A stretch of DNA of 40,715 bases from a virus, in the IMG/VR virus record IMGVR_UViG_3300031371_000009, positions 1-40,715 of that record, one strand, 5' to 3'. Position numbers and translations under genes: made by a program. The notes beneath the pieces are model-generated. The model saw only the letters and a list, made by a program, of their open reading frames with translations, was not told the DNA's origin and made no database searches. Positions 1,337 to 39,461 of this stretch are shown piece after piece (within the stretch, counting starts at the first letter, position 1; each line of letters opens with the position of its first letter).

Positions 1337-4078
1337 ATGAATTTTGACAGATATTTAGAAAAAAACCTACAGTATTTAATAATAGATACTGAGGTATTGG
1401 AGGACTATTTCTCATTTCAGTATAAAAATGAGAATTCAGAAACTAAAGTTATTGAGATAGAATCCGACAAAGGGTTTAAACAGTTCTATAATCTATTAGA
1501 AAAATCTAAAAGACCTATGTATTTTTATGGCATTGATTACGACAAAGTAATTTTAAATGCTGTTTGTAAATTAGTAGAAAGTAATAGTAATGATATTAAT
1601 TATAAATTAAGAAATATAAATGATTTTATAATTAGAGGTAATATAAATTATTTTCGCTTAAATCGTGAATTTTGGGTAAATAATTATTTTAAATTTAAAA
1701 AAACGTGTCCAGAGTTAAAAAGTAAAGATTTGATAACAAGATCGATCGATAGTTTCAAAGGTAATCAAACAGAATATGACTTTTTAAATCAGCATTTGAC
1801 TATTATGGGTCAGTCTAAAGTATTTAAAAATTTAATAATTAATAGTTTACCGAAAATTAATTATTACTTTAGTGTTAGAAAGGATAAATCTTTAATACCA
1901 ACTATATCATTAAAAAATCTTCAACTTGTAAATGAAGGATATAAGATCGAATTTGATTTTAATAAATATAGAAGAATAAGTGATATAAAAAAGGATGGTA
2001 AATATGAATATTTTAATAAATATTCTAAAAATGACATAACCTCACTAGAAAAAGAGTTCTTAAAAAAACCAAAATCAGATATTATAGAGCGATTATACGC
2101 TGTAGAAGCTGTAAAGGAACTTATACCAGATTTAGAAGTATCTAAGAAAGCAATTTACAGTGAAAACAACACAGAATTAATTAATGAAATATTAAAGTTA
2201 CCAGACCATGAAGATAAAAAGGAACTAAGAGATAATTTTGATTTTGATTATACAGAATACATCAAAACACCTGATGATAAGTTTAATAGTTTTGTAGAAT
2301 TTGTTAATAATTCCAAACATATTAAAAATGATAGAGAAATAAAAGCTAATTACTGTGAGTTCTATAAACGAGAAGTTATACAAGACGACAAAGAAATTTT
2401 AAATACTTTCGGAGAAATAGAAACTCAAATTAATAGTTTTGATGAAATACATATTAAAAATAAAATAAATGATATCATAGTTAAAATGGGTTTTGGTGGG
2501 CTTCATGGAGCTATTCCAAATTATAAGTCATTGGATAAGTTATTGAAGATATTTGATTATAAATCTCAATACCCATCAATTGTATTACAGTACCCAGAAC
2601 TATTTAAACATGTCATTAACGTAGACCTGTACAGGGCTATTTATGAAAAGAGATTTAAAATAAAAGCAGAAATAAAACAATTAATTAAGGATCAAAAAGA
2701 ATATTTAATAAGAATTAATGATGGTGCAGACATAGCAGAATATGAAGCTATTGAAGATCATATTACTTACTTAACTAAAGTTGAAAAAGGATTAAAATTG
2801 ATTTTAAATACAGCTTTTGGACTTATTAACTCAAATTATAATATACCAATAGCTTGCAAAACTTTAGGTCGTTTCATATGCTTAAAAGGTCAAAGTTTGC
2901 TATTAAATCTTTGTTATAAAGTAATGAATGATTATGAAATTATCAATGTTAATACTGATGGGGTTATGGTTAATGATACAATATCTAACAAAGTAATAGA
3001 GTTCCCAACTGATGGATATTTTGAATTAGGTGTCGAAAATTTTAAAACAATGATTCAGAATGATGTTAATAATTACTTAGGGATAATGACAGATAGCAAA
3101 GTAAAACGTAAAGGTATGTATAATATAAAAATCAAACAAAAAATTAATAAGAACGAAAAATTAGCGGTCAACTTGCAAAATGCTATAAATTCTATTATTG
3201 GCAAGGAGCTTATTATTGAACCTTGTTATTTTGATAAAAAATGGTTCGACAAAGAAATTTCTAGTCAAGCCTGGTATTTTACAACTAAGGAAAAAGGTCA
3301 AACCATTATTAAAAATACAAAAAAACCAGAGATACTGTCTATTGTTGTTAATGGTATATCTCAAAACTTATATTTTACTAATGATAAATCCAAAGCTGAT
3401 TTTAAATTATATATACATTATGCTGAAATTATAAAGGACCAGCTTTTAAAATTTGAATACATTTCAAAAAATAAGATCAATAATATGTATTATGAAGAAA
3501 CATTAGAGTTCGATAGTCTAGAATTAATCAAAAGTAAGAGACAAATAAAACGCAAATTAAATAAATTATTCGATTCTATGGCAGTAGGAATGGTAGGTTA
3601 TAAGTTTAAGAACAAAGTAAACAGTTTTGTATACCGTCAGCCAATAAAGCCGCTGATACAATATACAATGACTGATATACTTAAGTCTACTTATTGTACA
3701 GGATTTTCACTCGATAATAATGTAAAGTCTGAAAAAAAGTATATTATCATAGACATAGATATTTATGATAAAAATACAGGTACAGCGAAAAAAGGCTGGG
3801 GTATAGTAAAACCTTTTATATCTGAACTAAATAAGCTTAATACATTCCAATGCTGGAATATGAAAACATTGAAATACAATAGAAAATATGTATTTCAATA
3901 TGATTTAGATTTTATTGAATTCTGGAAAAAACATTTAGAATCTAAAGTATATCCTTATATAGAACTTATAGACAAGGCAACTATATTTACACTTGAAGGA
4001 CTAGGCGATATTCAATATCAGTGCAATTGGCTAGACCCTTTAGAAGTACCCAAAGGATTATTTAAAACCTTAAAATAA
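1337..4078 (+). CDS. Family B DNA polymerase (913 aa)
   Basis: This is the replicative DNA polymerase. The N-terminus carries exonuclease-like motifs: DTE near residues 17-19 (Exo I) and YFYGIDYDKVIL (Exo II type). Polymerase motif A is DYKSQYPSI (catalytic Asp407), motif B is KLILNTAFG (Lys487, Asn491), and motif C is VNTDGVMV with Asp541. The usual DTDS of motif C is NTDG here; the second, metal-binding Asp is kept. About 300 residues follow motif C, more than a thumb needs, and include hhhDhDh (IIIDIDIYD) near residue 813, which resembles primase motif I but is unproven. With the D5 helicase, the DEAH helicase and the SSB-like protein it forms a phage-encoded replication set. Confidence 0.93.
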   Translation: MNFDRYLEKNLQYLIIDTEVLEDYFSFQYKNENSETKVIEIESDKGFKQFYNLLEKSKRPMYFYGIDYDKVILNAVCKLVESNSNDINYKLRNINDFIIRGNINYFRLNREFWVNNYFKFKKTCPELKSKDLITRSIDSFKGNQTEYDFLNQHLTIMGQSKVFKNLIINSLPKINYYFSVRKDKSLIPTISLKNLQLVNEGYKIEFDFNKYRRISDIKKDGKYEYFNKYSKNDITSLEKEFLKKPKSDIIERLYAVEAVKELIPDLEVSKKAIYSENNTELINEILKLPDHEDKKELRDNFDFDYTEYIKTPDDKFNSFVEFVNNSKHIKNDREIKANYCEFYKREVIQDDKEILNTFGEIETQINSFDEIHIKNKINDIIVKMGFGGLHGAIPNYKSLDKLLKIFDYKSQYPSIVLQYPELFKHVINVDLYRAIYEKRFKIKAEIKQLIKDQKEYLIRINDGADIAEYEAIEDHITYLTKVEKGLKLILNTAFGLINSNYNIPIACKTLGRFICLKGQSLLLNLCYKVMNDYEIINVNTDGVMVNDTISNKVIEFPTDGYFELGVENFKTMIQNDVNNYLGIMTDSKVKRKGMYNIKIKQKINKNEKLAVNLQNAINSIIGKELIIEPCYFDKKWFDKEISSQAWYFTTKEKGQTIIKNTKKPEILSIVVNGISQNLYFTNDKSKADFKLYIHYAEIIKDQLLKFEYISKNKINNMYYEETLEFDSLELIKSKRQIKRKLNKLFDSMAVGMVGYKFKNKVNSFVYRQPIKPLIQYTMTDILKSTYCTGFSLDNNVKSEKKYIIIDIDIYDKNTGTAKKGWGIVKPFISELNKLNTFQCWNMKTLKYNRKYVFQYDLDFIEFWKKHLESKVYPYIELIDKATIFTLEGLGDIQYQCNWLDPLEVPKGLFKTLK

Positions 4079-4081
4079 GTG

Positions 4082-4120
4082 TTGACAGATTAACTTGAGT
4101 ATAGTATACTTAAGTTAATC
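4082..4120 (+). promoter_or_regulatory. Early promoter with palindromic operator (site 2)
   Basis: TTGACA (4082-4087) and TATACT (4105-4110) are 17 bp apart. A 33-nt palindrome with one mismatched pair (4088-4120) covers the spacer and the -10. It starts 3 bp after the polymerase stop and drives the block from 4141. Confidence 0.9.
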
Positions 4121-4140
4121 TTTTGTTAGGAGGTGAATGC

Positions 4141-4530
4141 GTGAATGATAGATACTTAAGGAATGAATTAGATATTTTACAAAAGGAAGCTAATTTATTA
4201 AATAGTGAATTAGATCGATTATCTAAACAAGAAAATTTTGTTAAAAACAAAAAAACTAAAATATCTAATAGAATCAAGAGATTAGAAGCATTATTAAAAG
4301 AATCACATGAATTAATAGTTACAGATCATGCGATTGTGCGGTACTTTGAACGGTACTTAGAATTTAATATAGAAGATATCAAAGAATCTATATTAAATGA
4401 AGAATTAAAAGAATTAGTAAAGGTTACAGGAAGTTGCAAATATTATAATAAAAATATAGATTGTGAAATTACAGTAAAAAATAATACTGTAGTATCGCTC
4501 TATAAGAAAGGATTAAAAAATGGCAAGTAG
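4141..4530 (+). CDS. Coiled-coil protein with DHAIVRYFER motif (129 aa)
   Basis: The GTG at 4141 is chosen because AGGAGGT lies 6 bases upstream; a TTG at 4123 in the same frame lies before that site. The first ~45 residues form a coiled coil (NELDILQKEANLLNSEL). The rest carries DHAIVRYFERYL and a short beta-rich end, similar to the H-A-x-x-R-x-x-x-R pattern of DUF4258-like phage proteins. Those belong to a small RNase/toxin-like fold, but no activity can be claimed. It overlaps the next gene by 11 bp. Confidence 0.65.
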   Translation: MNDRYLRNELDILQKEANLLNSELDRLSKQENFVKNKKTKISNRIKRLEALLKESHELIVTDHAIVRYFERYLEFNIEDIKESILNEELKELVKVTGSCKYYNKNIDCEITVKNNTVVSLYKKGLKNGK

Positions 4531-4771
4531 AGGGAAAATTAAAAGGTTGAAACTTCAACCGATTGTAAAAGGTGAAATAACACCTGTAGTTAATAGAAAA
4601 TTTAGTAGAAATAAGCTAAAAAAGGCTTTAAAATCTAATAAAATTCAAAAGAAATGGAGAAATTACAAGATTAATTTAAAAGGGCTAATTCCATATTTAA
4701 GAGAATTTAAAGCAACAACAAAGAGTCACTTAAGACCAAAAGAATTAAGGGAACATGGTATTAAAAAATAA
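4520..4771 (+). CDS. Small highly basic protein (83 aa)
   Basis: The ATG lies inside the end of the previous gene, so the two are translationally coupled. The protein is very rich in Lys/Arg (RGKIKRLKLQP, KFSRNKLKKALK) and almost lacks acidic residues, which suggests nucleic-acid binding. No family is recognised. Confidence 0.7.
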   Translation: MASRGKIKRLKLQPIVKGEITPVVNRKFSRNKLKKALKSNKIQKKWRNYKINLKGLIPYLREFKATTKSHLRPKELREHGIKK

Positions 4772-4790
4772 GAAAATGGAGGATTTTTAA

Positions 4791-5009
4791 ATGTTTTACA
4801 ATTTATATAATTTGGAAATAAAAAATATGATACATAATGATGTAACTATCTATGTTAGAAAAAATGAAACTTTAAAACACAGTATTAAAAGACATTTCCC
4901 TGATTATAATGGTGGTGATTTTTTAGCTGACAAGTGCAGTATAGTATTAATCAAGGATATACTTGTTGATGATTTATTCGAATATATGAAGGATTGGGCA
5001 AAACAATAA
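4791..5009 (+). CDS. Hypothetical protein (72 aa)
   Basis: An ATG with ribosome site GGAGG and the recurrent leader ATTTTTAA encodes 72 residues beginning MFYNLYNLEIKNMIHNDVTIYV and ending FEYMKDWAKQ. It looks like a small globular alpha/beta protein. No motif is recognised, and it lies in the site-2 operon. Confidence 0.7.
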   Translation: MFYNLYNLEIKNMIHNDVTIYVRKNETLKHSIKRHFPDYNGGDFLADKCSIVLIKDILVDDLFEYMKDWAKQ

Positions 5010-5030
5010 GGAAATGGAGGATTTTTAAAA

Positions 5031-5156
5031 ATGATTATAATTTATTTATTATTAGTAATTGTTGAAGCTTTAAAATTTAACTGGTTGGTATTCTGGCTAT
5101 TTGTAATATTACAATTTTGCCTGACTGCAATAAATGAATATAATAAAAAAAATTAA
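5031..5156 (+). CDS. Small membrane protein (41 aa)
   Basis: GGAGGATTTTTAAAA precedes an ATG that opens a 41-residue, nearly all-hydrophobic protein (MIIIYLLLVIVEAL, then FNWLVFWLFVILQFCLTAI), ending in a charged NEYNKKN tail. One long or two short membrane spans are likely. Function is unknown; it is the last gene before promoter site 3. Confidence 0.65.
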   Translation: MIIIYLLLVIVEALKFNWLVFWLFVILQFCLTAINEYNKKN

Positions 5157-5178
5157 TACAACTGAAATATAAGAAACA

Positions 5179-5218
5179 TTGACACGTTAAACTAACTATA
5201 GTATACTATAGTTAGTTT
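5179..5218 (+). promoter_or_regulatory. Early promoter with palindromic operator (site 3)
   Basis: TTGACA (5179-5184) and TATACT (5202-5207) with 17-bp spacing, and a perfect 30-bp palindrome (5189-5218). Sequence identity with site 1 runs from the -35 through the leader and ribosome site to the second codon, about 79 bp, so it is a duplicated promoter-leader cassette. It drives the DEAH helicase. Confidence 0.9.
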
Positions 5219-5251
5219 TTGATTTTACAAATTAAAGGAGATTAGAAAATT

Positions 5252-6769
5252 ATGAAATTAAGAGAATATCAAGAAGAATGTTTAGAGAAGATTAAAAAAG
5301 CAGGAACAGGAAAATATTTAATACAAATGGCTACTGGACTTGGAAAAACAGTAATATTTACAACACTTATAAATAATCAAACTAATTATGGAAGATGTTT
5401 GATTATATCTCATAGGGAAGAGCTAGTAAAACAGCCTTTAAAGTATATAACTAAAACTAAAGGAATCGAAATGGGAAAATATACTTCAAACCATGAAGAA
5501 ACAATATCGGGCTGTATAGCTTCACTAATTAGAAGGTATAAGAAATTTTCACCTGAATATTTTGGATTGATTATAGTAGATGAAGCCCATCACAGTGCCG
5601 CAAATTCTTATAAAAAACTTTTAGATTATTTTAAACCTAAACTATTATTAGGTTTTACAGCTACACCTAATAGAGCTGATAGTAAGAGATTAGATAAAGT
5701 ATATGATAAGATTATATATAAATATAATCTCTTAGATGGTATTAAGAATGGTTATTTATCTAATATTAGGTGTAAGAGAGTATATGTTAAGTATGACCTT
5801 AAAAACGTAAGATCACAATCAGGTGATTATAAGGTTAGTGATTTAGAAAATGAATTAATAGAGTCTGAAAATCCAAAAGCTATAGCAAAAATATATCAGG
5901 AACATGCAACAGGAGCAACTTTAATATTTGGTGTATCTGTCAAGCATTGCGAAGAAATAGCTAAAAACATAAAAGGTGCAGTCGTTGTTACTGCTGAAAC
6001 TAAGAACCGAGAACAAATAATTAAGGATTTTACCGCTGGTAAAATTAATTGTATTGTAAATTGTATGATTTTTACCGAAGGAACAGACATTCCAAAAATC
6101 AATACAATTATAATAGCCAGACCTACAAAAAATGTATCGCTGTATACACAAATTGTAGGTCGTGGGCTTCGGTTATATGATGGAAAAGAGTATTTAAATT
6201 TAATAGATTGTGTTGGTGTATCTACTGACTTAAATCTATGTACAGCACCAAGTTTACTAGGTATTGATTATAATGATGAAAAAGCACTTAAAAAGGAAAA
6301 CGAATTAGCCATGGACGTAGATTTATTTAACCTACCTGAAATAATTGAAGAAAAACAAGATCATCCCGATAACTGGAAAATTAATTATAAAGTTGTAAAC
6401 CTTTGGGCAAAAAAACAAAATTATCAATTACATAATATTAACTGGTATAAACACTCTGATGGACACTTTAGTTTATCATTGAAGAATAAAAACATTACTA
6501 CAGGTCCTATTAATGAATTAGGGTATATTACATTTAAAGGTCAACAATACGAAGCCCAAAACTTCTTTGATCGTGTATTTAAACAATTAAATACTAAATA
6601 CCCAGATCAGAAATATATTTGGGATTTGAACATAATGAAAAGCTGGGGATATAAACCAGCGTCAGAAGCTCAAATAAATCAGATTCAGAAAGCTTTACCA
6701 AATTATAATACTTATGGATTAAACAAGTTACAAGCGAGTCAGATTTTAAATAAAATTTATTCTAGATAG
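5252..6769 (+). CDS. SF2 DEAH-box helicase (505 aa)
   Basis: This ATP-dependent nucleic-acid helicase has Walker A ATGLGKT near residues 28-34, DEAHHS (Asp110) as motif II, GFTATPNR as motif III region, and the C-terminal motif VI QIVGRGLRLY. The order and length resemble phage and bacterial UvsW/RadD-type helicases that act in recombination-linked replication or repair. Residues past about 360 lack helicase motifs and contain a WDLNIMKSWGYKPAS stretch and a helical end that could bind DNA. The stop is TAG. It is read from promoter site 3. Confidence 0.92.
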   Translation: MKLREYQEECLEKIKKAGTGKYLIQMATGLGKTVIFTTLINNQTNYGRCLIISHREELVKQPLKYITKTKGIEMGKYTSNHEETISGCIASLIRRYKKFSPEYFGLIIVDEAHHSAANSYKKLLDYFKPKLLLGFTATPNRADSKRLDKVYDKIIYKYNLLDGIKNGYLSNIRCKRVYVKYDLKNVRSQSGDYKVSDLENELIESENPKAIAKIYQEHATGATLIFGVSVKHCEEIAKNIKGAVVVTAETKNREQIIKDFTAGKINCIVNCMIFTEGTDIPKINTIIIARPTKNVSLYTQIVGRGLRLYDGKEYLNLIDCVGVSTDLNLCTAPSLLGIDYNDEKALKKENELAMDVDLFNLPEIIEEKQDHPDNWKINYKVVNLWAKKQNYQLHNINWYKHSDGHFSLSLKNKNITTGPINELGYITFKGQQYEAQNFFDRVFKQLNTKYPDQKYIWDLNIMKSWGYKPASEAQINQIQKALPNYNTYGLNKLQASQILNKIYSR

Positions 6770-6782
6770 AAAGGGTGATAAA

Positions 6783-7157
6783 ATGTTTATTTGGATATAT
6801 GATTTATTTATGACAATATTTTTTCCTAAAAAAATTAAATTGTTTGTGAAGAAAGAAAATCCTTATCAAAACTATCATACATATGATAGTTTTGATAAAT
6901 TATTAAATAATGATATTACACCAATAGAACCAATACCAACAGGAACAACTTTAGATGAAAATGTTAATACTGGTATGTCTGTAATTGATAGTTTTGCACA
7001 TTATACACCAGACGATTCTATAACTATAGATCAAGATTCTATAGTTATAGATTATGATAAAAACGGTTATATAATTAATGGGAATTTTATAACTATGGAA
7101 GAAATACAAGATAATGGATTATTTAAATATATTAAATATTTTCATAAAAAGTGTTGA
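6783..7157 (+). CDS. Hypothetical membrane-associated protein (124 aa)
   Basis: An ATG 13 bp after the helicase, behind AAAGGG. The first ~18 residues are hydrophobic (MFIWIYDLFMTIFF) and followed by basic PKKIKLFVKK, so it may be anchored with the rest in the cytoplasm. The body is acidic with repeats of an 'ITxDxDSIVID' kind (SITIDQDSIVIDYD). Its last codon overlaps the -35 of promoter site 4. No family is recognised. Confidence 0.7.
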   Translation: MFIWIYDLFMTIFFPKKIKLFVKKENPYQNYHTYDSFDKLLNNDITPIEPIPTGTTLDENVNTGMSVIDSFAHYTPDDSITIDQDSIVIDYDKNGYIINGNFITMEEIQDNGLFKYIKYFHKKC

Positions 7158-7194
7158 CATTTACACTTAAACATAGTATACTATATTTGTAAGT
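7154..7194 (+). promoter_or_regulatory. Promoter for the tRNA and large RNA (site 4)
   Basis: TTGACA (7154-7159) and TATACT (7177-7182), 17-bp spacer. CACTTA and TAAGTG arms flank the ATAGTATACTAT core. The -35 overlaps the stop of the gene before. The predicted start near 7189 puts the hairpin, tRNA and large RNA on one transcript. Confidence 0.9.
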
Positions 7195-7220
7195 GAGACA
7201 CAAAACTATATATTGTACAC

Positions 7221-7249
7221 GTACTTGTGTATATAATATACACAAGTAC
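7221..7249 (+). repeat. 29-nt perfect hairpin at the RNA 5' end
   Basis: Bases 7221-7234 are the exact complement of 7236-7249, with one central base. In RNA this forms a 13-bp stem at the 5' end of the site-4 transcript, 8 bases before the tRNA. It may protect or guide processing of the transcript; binding by a dimeric protein is the alternative. Confidence 0.8.
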
Positions 7250-7257
7250 AAATATTT

Positions 7258-7331
7258 GGCGGTGTATCCTAGTTAGGTTAGGTGTAAGCTTCATAAGCTT
7301 AAATACGTGGGTTCAAATCCTACCACCGCAT
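7258..7331 (+). tRNA. tRNA with CAU anticodon (Met, or Ile2 after lysidine)
   Basis: The acceptor GGCGGTG pairs with CACCGC at 7324-7329 (first pair G-A mismatched). The anticodon stem TAAGC/GCTTA encloses the loop TTCATAA, giving anticodon CAU. The T arm is GTGGG-TTCAAAT-CCTAC with a 5-nt variable loop. No CCA is encoded. In AT-rich phages a CAU tRNA is often an isoleucine tRNA reading AUA once the host TilS modifies it; AUA is very frequent in this genome. Elongator or initiator Met remains possible. Confidence 0.88.
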
Positions 7332-7790
7332 TTTTTTGAACTAACACAGTTTACAAGTTGCATAACTCGACGACTGTGATATCAAGAGTTATGACCTAGT
7401 GTATGGGTCTATAGGGTTCGTGGGAAGCCCAAAAATACACAATCCTACAAAATTTAGTTAATGCAATCGTGAAAATTATATTAACTATAAGTTATTTAAA
7501 ATAAGCGTCTGATAAAGCTATTTACGAAATAGTACAGAGTAAGACTGATTTTAAATAACTTAATAAATCAGTATATACAAATGGTGTAAAAATGCCAGAG
7601 AATAGGGTTATCCACGATTTAAAACTCTGGTAAGGTTTACAAGCCAAATACTAGTTAACATGGCGTAAATAGGATTGACGAATCTAAAATTTATATAATG
7701 TATGTGTTAAAGAAGTTATATAAATACCTCAAAGATTACACCGTTTGTATGTACTGATGAAGCATATTAGTATATTAAAATAATAAAAAT
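7332..7790 (+). ncRNA. Large structured non-coding RNA candidate (GOLLD/ROOL-like setting)
   Basis: About 460 bases without a gene carry dense long-range complementarity. Helices seen: 7345-7350/7373-7378 and 7361-7368/7386-7393 (mutually crossing); 7399-7404/7435-7440 and 7412-7418/7441-7447 (also crossing); 7455-7462/7480-7487; 7488-7502/7548-7562 (15 perfect pairs) enclosing hairpin 7518-7523/7527-7532; and 7568-7589/7736-7757 (22 contiguous pairs, two G-U). The last closes a domain with hairpins 7595-7600/7625-7630, 7636-7646/7661-7669, 7673-7676/7681-7684 and 7690-7698/7716-7724. The RNA follows a tRNA on one transcript. Size and setting recall the phage ornate RNAs GOLLD and ROOL, but I cannot assign it to either. 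Confidence 0.8.
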
Positions 7791-7807
7791 AAAAGGAGAA
7801 TTTTTAA

Positions 7808-8728
7808 ATGTCAATCAATTCAAAAAGCAGGAAAGAAGATATTTACACAGCTTATAAGGAAATGAAAGCAGAATTGGATTCTAATTCTGGTGTATCTCTA
7901 CAGGATAGAGTATTAAAACAAACTACTGCAAAGGTTAAGGAACAACAGCCTTATACAGTACAATCCTTAGAAAATGCTAAGAATATTTTAGACGAAATGC
8001 TAAATGTCTATGGTGAACTAGACAAAGTAAATAATGTTATAGGTGTTAGAAAGCAAGAATTAAAGGAACTAACAGATATTGAACATGAGGTAAATACACT
8101 TGAAGCACTGCAAAAAGCAAATGAAAAAGCTAGGCTTGAGCATAATGATAAAATGAAAATGTTATCTCAATCTTATCAGGATAAGACATTTGAATTAAAC
8201 AAGGAATACAGCCGTAGAAATGATGATTTGATTTATGATATGGAACAGCTTAAAAAAGCTAAAAATAATGAAATTTCTGAAATGATTAAGAAAAGAATGG
8301 ATTCTTTGAAAGAAGAAGAATCTAAATTTATTAAAAGAGTTTCAGAATTTGAAGCTGAAAAGTACAATGTTGAAGATTTAAAAGCAGAAATACAAGCTTT
8401 GACTGATACTAAACAAGCTGAAATCAAAAAGGCTGTTGATAAGGAAAAAGCTATATTATCAAATGTGTTAACTAAAGATTTTGAACACAAATTAAAAGTT
8501 GCAGAACTCGAAGCTGATTCTAAAGTACAATTATTGGAATCCCAAGTAAAATCATTACAGGATACATTAACAGCTAGAAACTTTGAGAATAAAGAGCTTA
8601 ACGAAAAGCTTAGCGAATCATATAACAGAATTCAGAAAGTAATTTCTGAAGCTTTGGAAAGCAATAGTAGTAAATCACAAAATGAAAGTTTCAAACAATT
8701 AATAAGAGATATGAAAAAATCAGATTAA
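7808..8728 (+). CDS. Long coiled-coil protein (306 aa)
   Basis: AAAAGGAGAATTTTTAA precedes the ATG. Residues about 50-290 are almost continuous coiled coil (LKELTDIEHEVNTLEALQKAN, KKAVDKEKAILSN), charged, with no cysteines or membrane span. The N-terminal ~45 residues form a less coiled head (SRKEDIYTAYKEMKAEL). It lies directly downstream of the large RNA on the same transcript, and a strong terminator closes the unit, so it may act with that RNA. A scaffold or DNA-binding role is equally possible. Confidence 0.75.
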   Translation: MSINSKSRKEDIYTAYKEMKAELDSNSGVSLQDRVLKQTTAKVKEQQPYTVQSLENAKNILDEMLNVYGELDKVNNVIGVRKQELKELTDIEHEVNTLEALQKANEKARLEHNDKMKMLSQSYQDKTFELNKEYSRRNDDLIYDMEQLKKAKNNEISEMIKKRMDSLKEEESKFIKRVSEFEAEKYNVEDLKAEIQALTDTKQAEIKKAVDKEKAILSNVLTKDFEHKLKVAELEADSKVQLLESQVKSLQDTLTARNFENKELNEKLSESYNRIQKVISEALESNSSKSQNESFKQLIRDMKKSD

Positions 8729-8745
8729 TATAAATTTACTTTTAG

Positions 8746-8780
8746 TTACTACCAGTATATAATACTGGTAGTAATTTTTT
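8746..8780 (+). terminator. Strong rho-independent terminator
   Basis: A 13-bp perfect stem (8746-8758 with 8762-8774) with a 3-nt loop is followed by six T. It ends the unit that holds the tRNA, large RNA and coiled-coil gene. Confidence 0.92.
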
Positions 8781-8800
8781 ATATATTTTTATAAAAAGCG

Positions 8801-8838
8801 TTGACAGATAAACTTAAGTGTAGTATACTATAGTTAAG
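8801..8838 (+). promoter_or_regulatory. Early promoter with palindromic operator (site 5)
   Basis: TTGACA (8801-8806) and TATACT (8824-8829), 17-bp spacer. The imperfect palindrome AACTTAAGTGTAGTA / TACTATAGTTAAGTT lies over the -10 with two mismatches. It is almost the same as site 7 at 39483 and drives the small-gene block from 8870. Confidence 0.9.
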
Positions 8839-8869
8839 TTAAGAAATTAAATTTTTGGAGGTAATCTAA

Positions 8870-9232
8870 ATGAAAAAATCAGTTATAACAAGTAGTATAA
8901 TGTATAAGGCACATAGATTGACAAAAGCAATGGTTGCAGAAGATTCAACATTAAATTACAGATTACAATTAGGTATTAATATTAGACATTATCTAAATGT
9001 TGAAAAATCTAACAGAGAATTCAGATTATTACAAATCAGTGCTTATAAATGGATAAAGGATAGAATCAATCACAATAACAACATTCATAGTCAAGAATTA
9101 CATGATTTAATAGCTGATATGAATTATGACTTAAACATCAAAAGATACTATTGGGGCAAGTCTATGACTGCTTGGGAATTAAGTCAAGACTTAGCAACAA
9201 ATTATTCCAGAAATTTAAAATTATATGCTTAG
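8870..9232 (+). CDS. Hypothetical protein (120 aa)
   Basis: An ATG behind TTGGAGG opens a 120-residue helical, basic protein (MKKSVITSSIMYKAHRLTKAM; later YYWGKSMTAWELSQDLA). The arrangement resembles small phage proteins of unknown role. No catalytic pattern or metal site is seen. It is the first gene of the site-5 operon. Confidence 0.75.
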   Translation: MKKSVITSSIMYKAHRLTKAMVAEDSTLNYRLQLGINIRHYLNVEKSNREFRLLQISAYKWIKDRINHNNNIHSQELHDLIADMNYDLNIKRYYWGKSMTAWELSQDLATNYSRNLKLYA

Positions 9233-9251
9233 GAGGTGTAATTAAAAAAAA

Positions 9252-9587
9252 ATGAAAGATCAAATTAGAATAAATTATGAAAGAGAAGTAAATGAACTTG
9301 TAGAACTAGGAAATTCATTAAAAGCAGGTGGAATAAGTATAAAAATAATAGCTAAAACACTTTATGGTTTTAGAAGATTAATAGGTCTTAAATATAAATA
9401 TAAAAGAAATTATGAATATAGAGAAAAAATTTTTGAAAGAAATTTAAAAAAATATGGTGATGTATTAGGACCTAGATTTGAATATTTAGAAAATAAATAT
9501 AATGGGAATTATGAAGAAATAATTAATGCTTCATATAGAGTCAATAATGATTATGAAAAATTAAAAAAAGAAAATAAATTTGAATAA
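9252..9587 (+). CDS. Hypothetical basic helical protein (111 aa)
   Basis: The ATG is preceded by AGGAGGTG located at the end of the gene before, with an unusually long A-rich gap. The product is 111 residues, rich in Lys, Tyr and Glu (LKYKYKRNYEYREKIFERNLKKYG), all helical. No family is recognised; nucleic-acid contact is suggested only by charge. Confidence 0.7.
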   Translation: MKDQIRINYEREVNELVELGNSLKAGGISIKIIAKTLYGFRRLIGLKYKYKRNYEYREKIFERNLKKYGDVLGPRFEYLENKYNGNYEEIINASYRVNNDYEKLKKENKFE

Positions 9588-9609
9588 GATTAGAAAGGAA
9601 CTGATTAAT

Positions 9610-9801
9610 ATGTATTTAGTAATACAAGAACAAAAAATTATAATGGCTACTATGAGTTTTGTTGATATTTTAAAGTTAATTAATGGTAAATCTTCTATTA
9701 TGGATTTAGAAGTAATTGAAATTTCAAATTTCAATAATATAACTAATGATTTGTCTGATTATTATGATGAAGATTGTGGCTGTTATATAACAGATAAATA
9801 A
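9610..9801 (+). CDS. Hypothetical acidic protein (63 aa)
   Basis: The ATG at 9610 follows GAAAGGA at a normal distance; a TTG at 9580 in frame overlaps the gene before and lacks a site. The product starts MYLVIQEQKIIMATMSF and ends in the acidic Cys-containing tail YYDEDCGCYITDK. No family is recognised. Confidence 0.65.
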   Translation: MYLVIQEQKIIMATMSFVDILKLINGKSSIMDLEVIEISNFNNITNDLSDYYDEDCGCYITDK

Positions 9802-9991: not shown

Positions 9992-10159
9992 ATGAATTTT
10001 AAATGTAGTACCTGTTTTAATAATAAGTTTTTTATTAAAACAGTTGGTAATCATGAAGGGTTGTACTGTAGTAACTGCGGTAAATTCTTTAAATGGGCAA
10101 CTGATTCAGAAACAGACCTTTTGAAATATAGAGGTCAAATAGTAGAGGAGAGTGATTAA
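9992..10159 (+). CDS. Zinc-ribbon protein (55 aa)
   Basis: Two Cys pairs, CSTC near residues 5-8 and CSNC near 26-29, separated by about 17 residues, form a classic zinc ribbon. The ribosome site (GGAGG) lies in the end of the gene before. Small zinc ribbons in phages often bind nucleic acid or host proteins; no target can be named. Confidence 0.75.
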   Translation: MNFKCSTCFNNKFFIKTVGNHEGLYCSNCGKFFKWATDSETDLLKYRGQIVEESD

Positions 10160-10162
10160 TAC

Positions 10163-10297
10163 ATGGGTTGGCTAAAAGACATTTGGGAAGCATTCACAGA
10201 TCAAGATTTAGACACTTATACTTGCTGTGACAATCCAATGATAACGACCGTAAATGATAAAACATATTGTCAAAATTGCGGTACAGAATATAAATAA
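10163..10297 (+). CDS. Small zinc-ribbon protein (44 aa)
   Basis: The ATG is 3 bp after the previous stop, and GAGGAG lies upstream. The product begins MGWLKDIWEAF and carries CC (21-22) and CQNC (36-39), a compact four-Cys zinc knuckle. It is probably translated together with the zinc-ribbon gene before. No close family is recognised. Confidence 0.7.
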   Translation: MGWLKDIWEAFTDQDLDTYTCCDNPMITTVNDKTYCQNCGTEYK

Positions 10298-10348: not shown

Positions 10349-10450
10349 GTTAACAAACAAGGCAGTTAGTACAAGATACGAAAAGCTTGTTAACGTAAGA
10401 CCTTAACAAATAGAGGGGTAGTCAATCCCCTCAACCAAAATTATTATAAT
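10349..10450 (+). promoter_or_regulatory. Structured 5' leader of the SSB-like gene
   Basis: About 120 untranslated bases lie between promoter site 6 and the gene. GTTAACAA (10349-10356) can pair with TTGTTAAC (10387-10394), a third TTAACAA lies near 10404 and offers an alternative partner, and GAGGGG pairs with CCCCTC near 10412-10430 without a T-run. Switching pairings suggest RNA-level control, perhaps by the SSB itself. It does not match a riboswitch I know. Confidence 0.5.
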
Positions 10451-11095: not shown

Positions 11096-11215
11096 TCCTC
11101 TATAGTTTAAAGGTAAAACACGCTAATAAAATAATTAAAATGAAAACTTGGGTTAATAGTTAGTAATTAAATGAAATTGCAGTGTGATTCAGAGTTCGAT
11201 TCTCTGATAGGGGCT
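11096..11215 (+). pseudogene. Interrupted or degenerate tRNA-like sequence
   Basis: The ends look like a tRNA: CCTCTA(T) at 11097-11103 pairs with (A)TAGGGG at 11207-11213; a D arm GTTT-AAAGGTA-AAAC follows; and a perfect T arm CAGAG-TTCGATT-CTCTG lies at 11190-11206. Between the D and T arms are about 70 bases instead of about 24, and no good anticodon stem forms. A 1-base bulge disturbs the acceptor/T-arm joint. Either an insertion has broken a tRNA, or an intron-like element splits it. Confidence 0.6.
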
Positions 11216-12708: not shown

Positions 12709-13560
12709 ATGGGAACTATAAATGGTATATCTTATCATTCTAAACAAATCAAGTATAATAGAACTGCAAAGAAGAGAAGCAAAAAAGATATTAAAGCGAT
12801 TGTTGTTCATTATACTGCAAATTATAACACTGGTGCTGGTGGTGCTAAACATTTTGAATATTTTAATGGTGCTGATAGAAACTCGTCAGCAGACGTATTT
12901 ATAGACGATCACTCAATTTGGAAAGTTAATGATTGGACAAAATACTATAGTTGGGCTATAGGTGACGGTCATGGTAAGTATGGTTGGACGAATAGCAATA
13001 CCATTTCTATTGAAATGTGTGTAAATTCTGATGGTAATTTTAATAAAATGATTGAAAATACCATTAAATACATTAGGTATTTGCATTCACAAGGTTATAC
13101 AACAACATTAATCAGACATTACGACGCTTCGAGGAAATTATGTCCTATATATTTCGTAGATTTGAAAATATCTGGACATAACAAAGCATATACAGACTTT
13201 AGAAATAAGGTCTTTGCAAAGGAGGTTAAGAAACCAGTGGCTAAAGATATTTTTGATTACCCTGATAGTTTAAAATGGTTGCATGATAAGAAGTTTATTA
13301 CAGGTACTAATTATAATTCCAGTAAACAATTCAATTGTGAACAGATTGCAACTATTTTAAAACGTGTCTATACAGATTTAAAACAAAATGTACAGGACCC
13401 GCCAAAAGGTAAAATTTATAAAAATGAATTTTTACAGTGGTTATATGATAAGAAATTTATTACAGGTACTAAGTATATGACAACTAAGAATTTAAGCTAT
13501 TTTAACTGTGAACAGATCGCAGTTATTCTAAAAAGAGTATATACAGATATTAAGGGTTAA
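12709..13560 (+). CDS. N-acetylmuramoyl-L-alanine amidase endolysin (283 aa)
   Basis: The endolysin cuts the bond between MurNAc and L-Ala in peptidoglycan. Residues 25-160 form an Amidase_2 (PGRP-like) domain with the zinc ligands: VVHYTA (first His), LIRHYDASRKLCP (second His and the Cys/Lys pocket) and the IEMC strand. The C-terminus has two repeats of about 45 residues (FDYPDSLKWLHDKKFITGT / FLQWLYDKKFITGT, both with FNCEQIA-ILKRVYTD), a probable cell-wall anchor. The ribosome site is AAAGGTGGTG. There is no signal peptide, so it needs the holin. Confidence 0.93.
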   Translation: MGTINGISYHSKQIKYNRTAKKRSKKDIKAIVVHYTANYNTGAGGAKHFEYFNGADRNSSADVFIDDHSIWKVNDWTKYYSWAIGDGHGKYGWTNSNTISIEMCVNSDGNFNKMIENTIKYIRYLHSQGYTTTLIRHYDASRKLCPIYFVDLKISGHNKAYTDFRNKVFAKEVKKPVAKDIFDYPDSLKWLHDKKFITGTNYNSSKQFNCEQIATILKRVYTDLKQNVQDPPKGKIYKNEFLQWLYDKKFITGTKYMTTKNLSYFNCEQIAVILKRVYTDIKG

Positions 13561-17498: not shown

Positions 17499-17520
17499 GT
17501 TCATATATTTAGACAATTGT

Positions 17521-17922
17521 TAAAAAATGTAACCGCTGATAATCAGGGTTACATTTTTTGTAACCCTATCAAATGTAGTTGTATTCATAATTAGCGTATT
17601 AGGGTTACAAGAGGTTACAGAAATTTTTTAAAAGTTGTAACCTACTTAAAAGTAGTCATAGTCTAGCTTTAGACTCAAAAGGTTACAGGGTTACAACTTT
17701 TTATATAAAACAATATATACGAAAAAAAATATTAAAAATAAAATACTATATATATATAAGTATAAAGAAAAAGTTGTAACCCTGTAACTTTGACATCAAA
17801 TCGCACATTGCTCTAAGGCTAGGAGGGTTACAACGAGTTGTAACCGTTTTGTAACCCTAAATTTAAAAATCCTATACATTAGATTGTAACTGGTCTAGAT
17901 AGGGTTACAACTTTTGTAACCC
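17521..17922. repeat. GTTACA/TGTAAC repeat region A (candidate origin or centromere)
   Basis: A 600-base gap between portal and scaffold holds 16 GTTACA or TGTAAC motifs, mostly as GGGTTACAA/TTGTAACCC pairs facing each other with variable gaps. A central AT-only stretch (about 17700-17768) is flanked by a long inverted pair (17682-17702 with 17769-17789). A related copy is region B at 36987-37380, in the same orientation. Candidate roles are replication origin with DNA-unwinding core, partition site, or multi-operator control of the capsid promoter just downstream. Confidence 0.85.
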
Positions 17923-17974
17923 TATATTTTTAAAATTTATTAAAATTAATTGCTTTATTTTGTGCGTAAAACTA

Positions 17975-23000: not shown

Positions 23001-24113
23001 ATGTCTATATTAGCTGTAACGCCAACAATACCTGTTGGTAATGATATAATTGCTGGCGAATTTAAAGCTTATTTTAATTATGGTACACCATTACAAAAGT
23101 TAATTGGTGCAACTAGAGAAGGGTGTAAAATAGATTTAGATAGAGCTGTTAAAGCAATAGCACAAGATGGTGCATTTGGGAATACATTAGATTCTGATGG
23201 TGTACCTATGGTTAGATATGAAGGGTTTAATATTAAGCTAACATTAAATTCATTATATTTAAAATATTTAAATAGGAAAATTATTTCTAGTATGGAATCA
23301 GATGGCACATGGGAATCTGGTAATTGGGCAGAAACTGGTGGCACTTATGCCGCAGAAACTTCAATAGTAAATACAGGTGTACAATCAGCAAAGTGCGAAA
23401 TTGCGTCAGGTCAATCAGGTCATGGAATTAAGGAAGTATTTTCTACTTCTAAGGACTTAACTGTATTTGATAATGCAGAAGCTTCAACAACTAGTGATTA
23501 TATAGGATTTGCAATATATATAACTAGTGCAATGCTAACTATTTTAGGAACTGATGTAATCAGATTAATTTTCCATAATGACGCTGATTTAACAGAAACT
23601 AATTATCAATATTATGATATTGACCCAAGTACATTAACAGCCGATCAATGGAATAATATTAAAGTTTTAAAATCAGCATTCACAGGAGCAGGAACAGGAG
23701 CATGGACAGGTGTAACAGGTGTATCCGTTGAAGTACCAACAGAAACCGACGACGCACTAGAATTTTATATTGATTCATTAGATTTAATACAAAATCAATC
23801 AGATAGTGCAATAGTATCTGTAAATGGTAATCCATTTGGTTATACTGTTGTAGCTGGTTCACCAAGTTATAAGAAATATGTACCTAGTTTAGATATTTCT
23901 GATAATGACTATGTAGAAAATATCACAGTAGTTGGTCAAAAACTTGATGGTAAAAAAATGAAATGGATTTTAAAAGATTGTTTAAATGATGGTGGAATTA
24001 GTCTAGCTATGGAATCAATGGACGAAGTAGTAAACGAAACTGTATTTACTGCACATTATAACCCAAATTCAGGGCTAGAAGTACCCTTAAAAATTAGGGA
24101 ATATGTAGCATAA
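23001..24113 (+). CDS. Tail tube protein with inserted jelly-roll domain (370 aa)
   Basis: Residues 1-95 and about 265-370 are paralogous to the next gene (IGATREGCKIDLD against IGATRGGVKLEVE; YVENITVVGQKLDGK against VLDNIGYIGKKANGD). An extra ~170 residues between them (about 96-265) look like a carbohydrate-binding jelly roll: GTWESGNWAETGG, SAKCEIASGQSG, DQWNNIKVLKSAFTGAG. The same domain type recurs in the 1116-residue tail protein. The insert would project from the tube as a surface decoration. Confidence 0.8.
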   Translation: MSILAVTPTIPVGNDIIAGEFKAYFNYGTPLQKLIGATREGCKIDLDRAVKAIAQDGAFGNTLDSDGVPMVRYEGFNIKLTLNSLYLKYLNRKIISSMESDGTWESGNWAETGGTYAAETSIVNTGVQSAKCEIASGQSGHGIKEVFSTSKDLTVFDNAEASTTSDYIGFAIYITSAMLTILGTDVIRLIFHNDADLTETNYQYYDIDPSTLTADQWNNIKVLKSAFTGAGTGAWTGVTGVSVEVPTETDDALEFYIDSLDLIQNQSDSAIVSVNGNPFGYTVVAGSPSYKKYVPSLDISDNDYVENITVVGQKLDGKKMKWILKDCLNDGGISLAMESMDEVVNETVFTAHYNPNSGLEVPLKIREYVA

Positions 24114-24127
24114 GGAGGTGTTTTTGA

Positions 24128-24688
24128 ATGGCTACAATTACAAAGTTTGCACCAGCAAACATTGAAAAGGCAAAAGATGTTTTACTTGGCGAAGGTGTTT
24201 TATATAAAGACCTTGACGAAGCAGGCGAAGCAATTATAGGTGCTACTAGAGGTGGCGTCAAGCTAGAAGTAGAAAAGGAAATAAACCCATTAGCCTATGA
24301 CGGCTCTTTGGGTGATACAAAAGGATTAAAAAGAGTATTAAGGGAAATGCCAAAAATGATAATAAATTTTCTTACTCTTACTTATCAAAATTTAGCTTAT
24401 GGCTTGAATGTTACCGTTTCAGACGGTACGGACCAAGATGGAACATACAAAGAAATATCTTTTGATACTTCATTTGATAGTGCTGATGTTTTAGATAACA
24501 TTGGTTATATAGGTAAGAAAGCAAATGGAGATTCTTGCAAAATAAAAGTATTAAAAGCATTTAATATGGATTCAATATCATTTGAATTTAAGGAAAAAGA
24601 TGAAATAGTAGTTGAAATGACATATACAGGGTTTTACACATATGGTTCAACAACACCGCCTTGGCAAATGGAAGAAGACGTATCATAA
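24128..24688 (+). CDS. Major tail tube protein (186 aa)
   Basis: Alpha/beta tube protein without the insert, paralogous to the gene before it. IGATRGGVKLEVEKEINPLAYDGSLG and VEMTYTGFYTYGSTTPPW are typical for Gram-positive phage tube subunits. Two tube subunits, one plain and one decorated, are probably mixed in the tail, or one forms the end ring. GGAGGTG lies before the ATG. Confidence 0.82.
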   Translation: MATITKFAPANIEKAKDVLLGEGVLYKDLDEAGEAIIGATRGGVKLEVEKEINPLAYDGSLGDTKGLKRVLREMPKMIINFLTLTYQNLAYGLNVTVSDGTDQDGTYKEISFDTSFDSADVLDNIGYIGKKANGDSCKIKVLKAFNMDSISFEFKEKDEIVVEMTYTGFYTYGSTTPPWQMEEDVS

Positions 24689-36966: not shown

Positions 36967-36986
36967 CGTTTTTATTGTAGTATTTA

Positions 36987-37380
36987 AAGTTACAAAAAAG
37001 TTGTAACCCTGTTTAATGTACTATTAATCATACATACAGCAGTTGAATTGTTTAGGGTTACAACAGGTTACAGAAATTTTTTAAAAGTTGTAACCCTATC
37101 AAATGTAGTCGTGTTCTTAATCTAACGAGTTAGGGTTACAGGGTTACAACTTTTTATATAAAAAACTATATACGAAAAAAAAATTTATAAAAATAAAATA
37201 CTATATATATATATAAGTATAGAGAAAAAGTTGTAACCCTGTAACCTTAGCACTAAATCATTGATCGCTCTAAGGCTACAAGGGTTACAACGAGTTGTAA
37301 CCGTTTTGTAACCCTAAAATTAAAAACTGTACACATTAGATTGTTACTGGTCTACATAGGGTTACAACTTTTGTAACCCT
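36987..37380. repeat. GTTACA/TGTAAC repeat region B (candidate origin or centromere)
   Basis: Fourteen GTTACA/TGTAAC motifs between the minus promoter and the D5 helicase gene. From about 37056 it is a clear copy of region A: GGGTTACAA, GGTTACAGAAATTTTTTAA, the AT-only core (37149-37225), the inverted pair around it, and the terminal AGGGTTACAACTTTTGTAACC. Modules are permuted: the piece TAACCCTATCAAATGTAGT precedes them in A and follows the first ones in B. The site next to the D5-like helicase is typical for a replication origin. Confidence 0.85.
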
Positions 37381-37461
37381 AAATATTTTGAAAAATCAAT
37401 AATTAGATTTACTTTATAATGGTAATATGTTAAAATTATATTATTGCTTAGGGGATAGAAA

Positions 37462-37486: not shown

Positions 37487-37514
37487 AAAATTTAAAAGCG
37501 GAGGTGTTGTGGTA

Positions 37515-39461
37515 ATGAATGACACAAACAATAAGAAATTATACATTATAGAATATGATATAGATTCTATATTAATAAACGACACTTTATCAGAAAAAAT
37601 CTATAATGATATAGATAAATATATCGATATAGAGATTAATTATTTAAAGGATAAAGGATTTAAATTTATAGAGAAGAAGGATGAAACACAGTTAATATTT
37701 TGTTTTGATTTAAATTTAAATAAAAACAAATTTAAAAATATTCCGATCGGTTTTATTTCTGAATGTGACAGTGATTACAACAGATTAGATCATTCAAAAT
37801 ATAAGTATGAATTAAAGCAGAAAATCGTTGATAAACGGTTAGAAGCTATTAAAACCGTTTTTGATGATATGGGTATAAATTATTCAATGAAATCTGATGG
37901 AGCTGAATATTCTTGTCATGTTTGTAAAAAAGATAATATGAAATGTAAGATATTTACTTCATTTATTACAAATACATTTTCTAAAAATGATTGTACAGAC
38001 GAAAAACACCAACGAGAATTTAAGAAACTTAAGAAAAAGTGTCAGGACGTATATAATGAATTAAAAAATGATATTTTAGGTATTTATAACTTAGATGTCG
38101 ATAGAATTAGGGAAATTGTTAATACTCATTTTCCTAAGATCAAAAGGGATAAAAATTCAGGTGATTTATATTATTATAGTGAAATAAATAAATATTATAA
38201 AGTATTAATTGATGAGAAAAATAATTCAATGTTAAACGCACTTATTAGAAAGTATTTTTTTCATGACGTTTTAGGTGATATATTCACATTAAACACTAAG
38301 GACATGAACGATTTGAGAAATGTTTTATATGATATGGTTTTCGTAGAAGTTTCAGAACCCATAACTGACGATTATATATGTCTGAATAATGGCGTGTATG
38401 ATATAAAAAATAAGTCTCTAATAGATCATGATTCAGAGTTATTTTTTATTAATAAATTAGAGATAGACTATAATCCTAAATTGGGTTATAAGTTCGTAGA
38501 AGATTTATGCAACGATTGGAAAATAGAATCAGATGAATTTAAAAGAATGTTAGGTTATTGCTTCACATCTGATTATTCACAGGAAAAAATATTTATTATG
38601 AATGGTTTAGGTGGTTCAGGCAAAGGCACTTCTATGGAAATATTAAACCAATTGTTAAAAGGTAAAACAATTGGTTGTGATATAGAAGATATCAGCAAAG
38701 GATTTGCTCCAACTGGTATTGAGAATGCTACTACCATGATAGATTATGATTTTGATTCTGAGACATTCTATAGAGTTTCAGTCAAGAAATTAAATAAATA
38801 CTGTGATGGTTCAGAAATTTATGTTGACAGAAAGTATAAACAAGGCTTTTATATAGAAGGAAAATTAAAACCTATAATATGTACCAATGAGTTGCCAAAT
38901 TTAAAACTTAATACAGATAATCTTGGATACTATAGAAGATTGTATGTATTTGATTTTAAAAATCAGTTTAAGGAAGGAAAAAATCAAAATTTTAATTTAA
39001 AAAATCTTATTAAAACAGATAGTAAATGTAGGTCTGAAATGTTAAACTTTTTAATTTCAGCGATACATTTATATCATGACAGAGATATCACAAAACCATT
39101 TTTTAAGAATCAGGACGATTTAAAATTAAAACAACAGGCTGAATCAAATCCTACAATAGAATATATCTTAGATAGTTTTGAAAAAACAAGTGTATCTGAT
39201 GAAATCAAAGAAAATTATAGATTAAGTTGGTCTGAAATAATAGAACACTACAACAAATATGCTGAATCAATGAACTTTTCAGCAATGCAAAAACGTAAGC
39301 TTAAAAAGCTATTTAAACAGTATTTACACATTATAGATAATGATTTAGATAGAGTTTTAAAAATAAAAGGTAAACCAACTAGGTGTATAATGAATATAAG
39401 ATTTAAAAATGACGATAACGACATTTCTAAAGATTTTTCTGAACATGAAACGGAAATGTAA
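37515..39461 (+). CDS. D5-like SF3 helicase / primase (648 aa)
   Basis: The ATG at 37515 is 8 bases after GGAGGTG; the GTG at 37509 is too close. The C-terminal half is a superfamily 3 helicase: Walker A GLGGSGKGT (about 364-372), ATTMIDYDFDSETF as Walker B, and sensor CTNELPNL followed by YYRRLYVFDF. The flanking N-terminal domain of D5 type (YDMVFVEVSEPITDDYICLNNGVYDI) is present. The first ~190 residues have CHVCKKDNMKC, perhaps a zinc site, and no clear primase triad. It would unwind the phage DNA at region B or A for the family B polymerase. Confidence 0.9.
   Translation: MNDTNNKKLYIIEYDIDSILINDTLSEKIYNDIDKYIDIEINYLKDKGFKFIEKKDETQLIFCFDLNLNKNKFKNIPIGFISECDSDYNRLDHSKYKYELKQKIVDKRLEAIKTVFDDMGINYSMKSDGAEYSCHVCKKDNMKCKIFTSFITNTFSKNDCTDEKHQREFKKLKKKCQDVYNELKNDILGIYNLDVDRIREIVNTHFPKIKRDKNSGDLYYYSEINKYYKVLIDEKNNSMLNALIRKYFFHDVLGDIFTLNTKDMNDLRNVLYDMVFVEVSEPITDDYICLNNGVYDIKNKSLIDHDSELFFINKLEIDYNPKLGYKFVEDLCNDWKIESDEFKRMLGYCFTSDYSQEKIFIMNGLGGSGKGTSMEILNQLLKGKTIGCDIEDISKGFAPTGIENATTMIDYDFDSETFYRVSVKKLNKYCDGSEIYVDRKYKQGFYIEGKLKPIICTNELPNLKLNTDNLGYYRRLYVFDFKNQFKEGKNQNFNLKNLIKTDSKCRSEMLNFLISAIHLYHDRDITKPFFKNQDDLKLKQQAESNPTIEYILDSFEKTSVSDEIKENYRLSWSEIIEHYNKYAESMNFSAMQKRKLKKLFKQYLHIIDNDLDRVLKIKGKPTRCIMNIRFKNDDNDISKDFSEHETEM

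Follow-up and report, generated by a model that had tools for sequence, protein, structure and literature searches.

A candidate new structured RNA with a conserved 3' domain, encoded behind a tRNA gene in an uncultured tailed phage

In an uncultured tailed phage with a genome of ~40 kb, the 460 nucleotides that follow a tRNA gene can form a multi-branched fold whose 3' domain, made up of about four hairpins closed by a 23-bp helix, is conserved across three related phages. Comparison of the sequences favours the reading that this RNA belongs to a new, rare family of a known kind, with a plan like that of GOLLD, which would be neither GOLLD nor ROOL. That it represents a new family of structured phage RNA which is processed from a tRNA-mRNA transcript and acts in trans has, in our estimate, about an even chance of being correct. 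The window, which is the whole stretch of 40,715 nucleotides analysed here (IMG/VR record IMGVR_UViG_3300031371_000009), carries genes for DNA polymerase, helicase, primase, terminase, portal, head and tail proteins, and its nearest named relatives are distant, being mostly phages of Gram-positive bacteria.

The original prediction had placed a strong promoter upstream of the tRNA and the RNA, and the end of the transcript at the terminator of the gene for a coiled-coil protein; a near-consensus promoter and a terminator-like hairpin are present at these places (Table 1), and no terminator-like site was found that would separate the RNA from that gene in the window. The stretch between tRNA and coiled-coil gene (7332-7790) had been described as free of genes, and it indeed contains no ORF of at least 60 amino acids, the ORFs that overlap it being fragments of 20-50 amino acids only.

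Table 1. Features of the RNA region and its surroundings (positions in the window)
Feature	Position	Strand	Remarks
Sigma-70-type promoter, TTGACA-17-TATACT	7154..7182	+	11/12 matches
Leader motif and perfect hairpin	7204..7249	+	motif AACTATATATTGTACAC at 7204-7220, then hairpin 7221-7249
tRNA-Met(CAT)	7258..7331	+	49.6 bits; CCA not encoded
Possible pseudoknot	7345..7393	+	equally long one in 13/1000 shuffles
Hairpin and abutting 15-bp helix	7455..7562	+	hairpin 7455-7487, helix 7488-7502/7548-7562; z -3.5
Conserved 3' domain	7567..7758 (about)	+	closed by P1; ~190 nt
P1, 23-bp closing helix	7567-7589/7736-7758	+	kept in all three phages
Hairpin P2	7593..7632	+	7593-7600/7625-7632; hairpin of different sequence at the same place in all three phages
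Hairpin P3	7635..7672	+	7635-7640/7665-7670 and 7643-7646/7661-7664
P3 loop AUACUAGUUA	7648-7657	+	invariant; contains palindrome ACUAGU (7650-7655)
Strand GCGUAAAUAG	7663-7672	+	invariant in three phages
Hairpin P4	7672..7685	+	7672-7676/7681-7685; GACG loop invariant
Hairpin P5	7689..7725	+	7689-7698/7716-7725; G001 and G002 have a different hairpin close to this place
Coiled-coil protein gene	7808..8728	+	306 aa; same direction as the RNA
Terminator-like hairpin and T-run	8744..8776	+	3' of the coiled-coil gene

Folded as a single sequence, 7332-7790 reaches a minimum free energy (MFE) of -115.4 kcal/mol, against -80.7 +/- 5.2 for its shuffles (z = -6.75), none of 100 of which folded as well; the reverse strand is stable too (z = -4.53), in part owing to inverted repeats, which can fold whichever strand is read. 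The helices that had been proposed from the sequence are recovered in the MFE structure: the 22-bp helix 7568-7589/7736-7757 with its two G-U pairs, which grows to 23 pairs with a flanking A-U, the four hairpins that it encloses, and the perfect 15-bp helix that abuts the hairpin upstream of it. Among 300 shuffles of the region, a single one has a 15-bp Watson-Crick helix, and a single one has a helix that reaches 22 bp when G-U pairs count. The pairings of the proposed 5' pseudoknot (7345-7350/7373-7378, interleaved with 7361-7368/7386-7393) are also present, and the frequency of equally long pseudoknots in shuffles makes this element suggestive in a single sequence; no homologue of it is found in the two related phages described below, nor was any found for the unit of hairpin and 15-bp helix. 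A 9-bp complementarity between 7518-7526 and 7664-7672 was judged to be due to chance.

Comparison with other phages narrows the conserved unit. A helicase search identified a related phage, G001 (major capsid protein, MCP, 79% and terminase large subunit, TerL, 61% identical), and one of two degenerate-pattern scans of IMG/VR, read over the matches listed, supplied a third phage, G002 (TerL 50% identical), with which a second record shares an identical stretch of 2400 bases; a further pattern scan returned known relatives and unrelated sequence only. Among the matches listed, distinct homologues of the 3' domain thus number three, always on the sense strand and downstream of a TTGACA / sigma-70-type promoter. 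A model (R1) built from the three phages scores 156-189 bits in them, with one copy per genome; in seven named phages that are distantly related it found no significant match. Against isolate phages and plasmids, BLASTN with the region or with the 3' domain gave only short matches at chance level, and a repeated RB69-type match, located between rnh and gene 34, was rejected. IMG/VR yielded no close relatives of the coiled-coil protein, and bacterial genomes none of TerL or MCP.

The sequences upstream of the 3' domain differ among the three phages. In G001 the domain directly follows a promoter, the shared motif TATATATTGTACAC and a perfect hairpin; the leader motif of 7204-7220 is almost identical there and precedes a perfect hairpin of unrelated sequence, and both the tRNA and the 5' domains are absent. 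In G002 the order is promoter, a pseudoknot-like element (C), a tRNA-like element that we read as degenerate, and a further element (B). By this comparison the 5' half is not conserved, consisting of tRNA and pseudoknot here, of a hairpin alone in G001 and of other modules in G002. Since the 5' half is found only in this phage, the idea of the whole 460 nt as one conserved RNA is unsupported, and what the relatives share is the 3' domain of ~190 nt only. The gene downstream also differs, encoding the coiled-coil protein in the window, a single-stranded DNA-binding protein (SSB) ~350 nt further on in G001, and a small RHH-like protein in G002.

Elements B and C recur elsewhere in these genomes. 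Element B, structured (z -3.0), lies in the leader of the SSB gene in the window (10358-10435) and just before the 3' RNA domain in G002 (23478-23553, reverse complement), the two copies being 94% identical; for the element upstream of SSB, matches in isolate phages cover only the promoter end (query 1-73) among the matches listed. Element C, a possible pseudoknot, lies on opposite sides of the 3' domain, downstream in G001 (~10130-10225) and upstream in G002 (~23300-23365, reverse complement). Three of its pairs are changed on both sides in a hand alignment, and as AT-rich sequence of this kind often contains pseudoknots of this size by chance, the element rests on comparison only.

In G001 the early replication genes (polymerase, helicase and primase, at 1337-9801 and 37509-39461 in the window) point the other way with respect to the late genes, while the RNA keeps the direction of the late genes. 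The endolysin (12709-13560) shares 89% identity with its counterpart in G002, against 50% for TerL, which points to recent exchange. A non-coding tandem array at 313-564 consists of ~16 copies of the 15-bp unit TTTGTACCTAGCAAC, and in G001 and G002 similar repeats directly follow the tail genes. Two similar non-coding stretches of the window, 17500-17960 and 36970-37400, are rich in GGGTTACAAC / GTTGTAACCC repeats and lie upstream of the scaffold and primase genes; they may serve as origins or as regulator sites. A link between the RNA and a replication origin was set aside: repeat-rich sequence borders the RNA in G001 but is at least 10 kb distant from it in the window. Finally, tRNA genes at 11097-11214 in the window and at ~24430-24625 in G002 (reverse complement) have apparent long insertions in the anticodon loop, of ~50 and ~130 nt respectively, with similar sequence such as AGTTAGTAAATTAATG. 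In the window, ARAGORN recognises this tRNA only with introns allowed, and the insertion boundaries in both tRNAs, together with the G002 insertion as a whole, are given as they appear to us.

Within the 3' domain, an alignment of the three phages (A5) has 42 consensus pairs with 96% of cells paired, under a consensus structure derived from the alignment itself, which favours structure. Five pairs are changed on both sides, two of them in P4, against a mean of 2.0 in shuffled alignments, 3 of 500 of which reach five, in a control that ignores the relatedness of the phages; with three distinct homologues only, such counts are small. Sliding the partners by 1-3 columns leaves 22-46% paired and no pair changed on both sides. 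A hand-made structural alignment, which leans towards structure even more than A5, brings in P2 together with a junction helix and yields more double changes. P1 behaves differently: its arms are 96-98% identical, against 57-81% for the interior, and show no double changes, while each of the three departures from Watson-Crick pairing in the long helix reads as G-U on the + strand, which is what an RNA made from that strand would predict. Covariation in related phages, anticipated for the proposed helices, is accordingly found in the inner helices (five pairs) and not in P1. The whole domain is more stable than its shuffles in all three phages (z -6.6, -6.5 and -5.4), mainly because of P1, whereas the interior is no stabler than shuffles (z -1.6, +0.1 and -0.8), so that the interior hairpins rest on comparison and not on energy. 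The invariance of AUACUAGUUA, GCGUAAAUAG and GACG within this otherwise diverged interior therefore points to tertiary contacts or to a partner. Taken with the fold and the helices above, this covariation bears out the claim of a large multi-domain structured RNA behind the tRNA.

As to its class, the original prediction had left open a member of GOLLD or ROOL, a distant relative or a new class, of which the last is favoured. With Rfam 15, cmscan at gathering thresholds reported only two tRNAs in the window and nothing in G001 and G002, and a permissive cmscan of the region gave the tRNA and chance-level matches only. Neither the GOLLD model (RF02032, gathering score 150 bits), whose best score elsewhere in the window is 9.8 bits, nor the ROOL model (RF03087, gathering score 99.1 bits) matches the RNA in any of the three phages, although the latter scores 135 bits in a positive control, the Ligilactobacillus salivarius plasmid NZ_CP047413.1. 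These scores largely refute membership in either family and make a divergent GOLLD or ROOL very improbable indeed, despite the phage setting next to a tRNA and an overall plan that resembles GOLLD. GOLLD has a conserved 3' and a less conserved 5' region, with one member downstream of a Met-tRNA and tRNAs sometimes in the linker, and forms a closed 14-mer cage; ROOL, a structured phage RNA with pseudoknots often found near tRNA islands, forms a homo-oligomeric cage (PMC12286853). The RNA described here shares with GOLLD a phage location near a tRNA, a conserved 3' region and a variable 5' region, in a likeness of plan and not of homology, but its conserved part is ~190 nt long, compared with 416 positions in the GOLLD model, and is closed by a single 23-bp helix. 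With ROOL it has in common a structured phage RNA near a tRNA with a possible pseudoknot.

The leading mechanism, itself uncertain, is that of a stable RNA cut from a tRNA-mRNA transcript. A single transcript would start near 7190 and take in tRNA, RNA and coiled-coil gene; maturation of the tRNA by RNase P in front and RNase Z behind, the latter proposed because no CCA is encoded, would free a 5' end near 7332, and an RNase III-type cut at the 23-bp helix could part the 3' end from the mRNA. Most speculatively, the freed RNA may act in trans, built like GOLLD and ROOL and not as part of the message, and may be stable and possibly self-associate through the palindromic loop ACUAGU, a match of 6 nt that could occur by chance. 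The presence of a tRNA upstream of the 3' domain in the window and of a tRNA-like element in G002 counts in favour of this reading, and the different downstream gene in each phage argues against control of one gene. Against the stable RNA stand the P1 arms, which are under more sequence constraint than RNA pairing needs, the lack of a recognisable terminator parting the RNA from the next gene, and a 5' half without homologue.

The main rival, less probable though a serious one, is a cis-acting leader in the 5' part of the operon transcript, working through RNase III processing or mRNA protection, antitermination of the kind seen with HK022 putRNA, or translational control. In all three phages the RNA lies in sense, preceded by a strong promoter and followed by the first gene, and in the window no terminator-like site was found ahead of that gene; an uninterrupted 23-bp helix is a suitable RNase III substrate, and a general leader can do without a constant downstream gene. 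However, a processing site of ~190 nt that has several hairpins as well as invariant loops would be elaborate; the next gene in G001 begins ~350 nt further on, and the coiled-coil transcription unit comprises one gene and is then closed by a terminator-like site, so that antitermination has little nearby to act on. The put RNA of HK022 is much shorter than the domain described here. HK022 nevertheless offers a precedent: this phage uses its nascent leader RNA for antitermination, and there too a strong promoter drives a transcript that carries a structured RNA (PMC9378689). A decidedly unlikely alternative moves the constraint to the DNA: the 23-bp arms would be recognised as DNA, as recombinase or transposase ends or as a protein-binding site, in a small non-autonomous inverted-repeat cassette that moves between phages. 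The near-perfect conservation of the P1 arms around a diverged interior would be simpler under a DNA inverted repeat than under RNA pairing, similarity among the relatives ends where the arms end, and neighbouring modules vary between phages; yet each genome has a single copy, we saw no target-site duplication in the flanks, the interior pairs covary, the arms differ by G-U on one strand, and the orientation is constant, always downstream of a promoter. A retron was rejected, as no reverse transcriptase was present among the genes searched.

A bolder form of the stable-RNA reading, which we consider rather unlikely, would see here a third, unrelated class of phage RNA that follows the GOLLD/ROOL plan: the RNA would be freed from a tRNA transcript, self-associate through the invariant loop with ACUAGU and carry interchangeable 5' modules, tRNAs among them. 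To our knowledge, large phage RNAs adjoining tRNAs are few and have no known function. The minimal form in G001, a hairpin followed by a closed domain of 140 nt, is of a size that permits direct probing. Should the family prove to be independent and unrelated, its layout of a conserved 3' domain with a variable, tRNA-bearing 5' part would appear to have been selected repeatedly.
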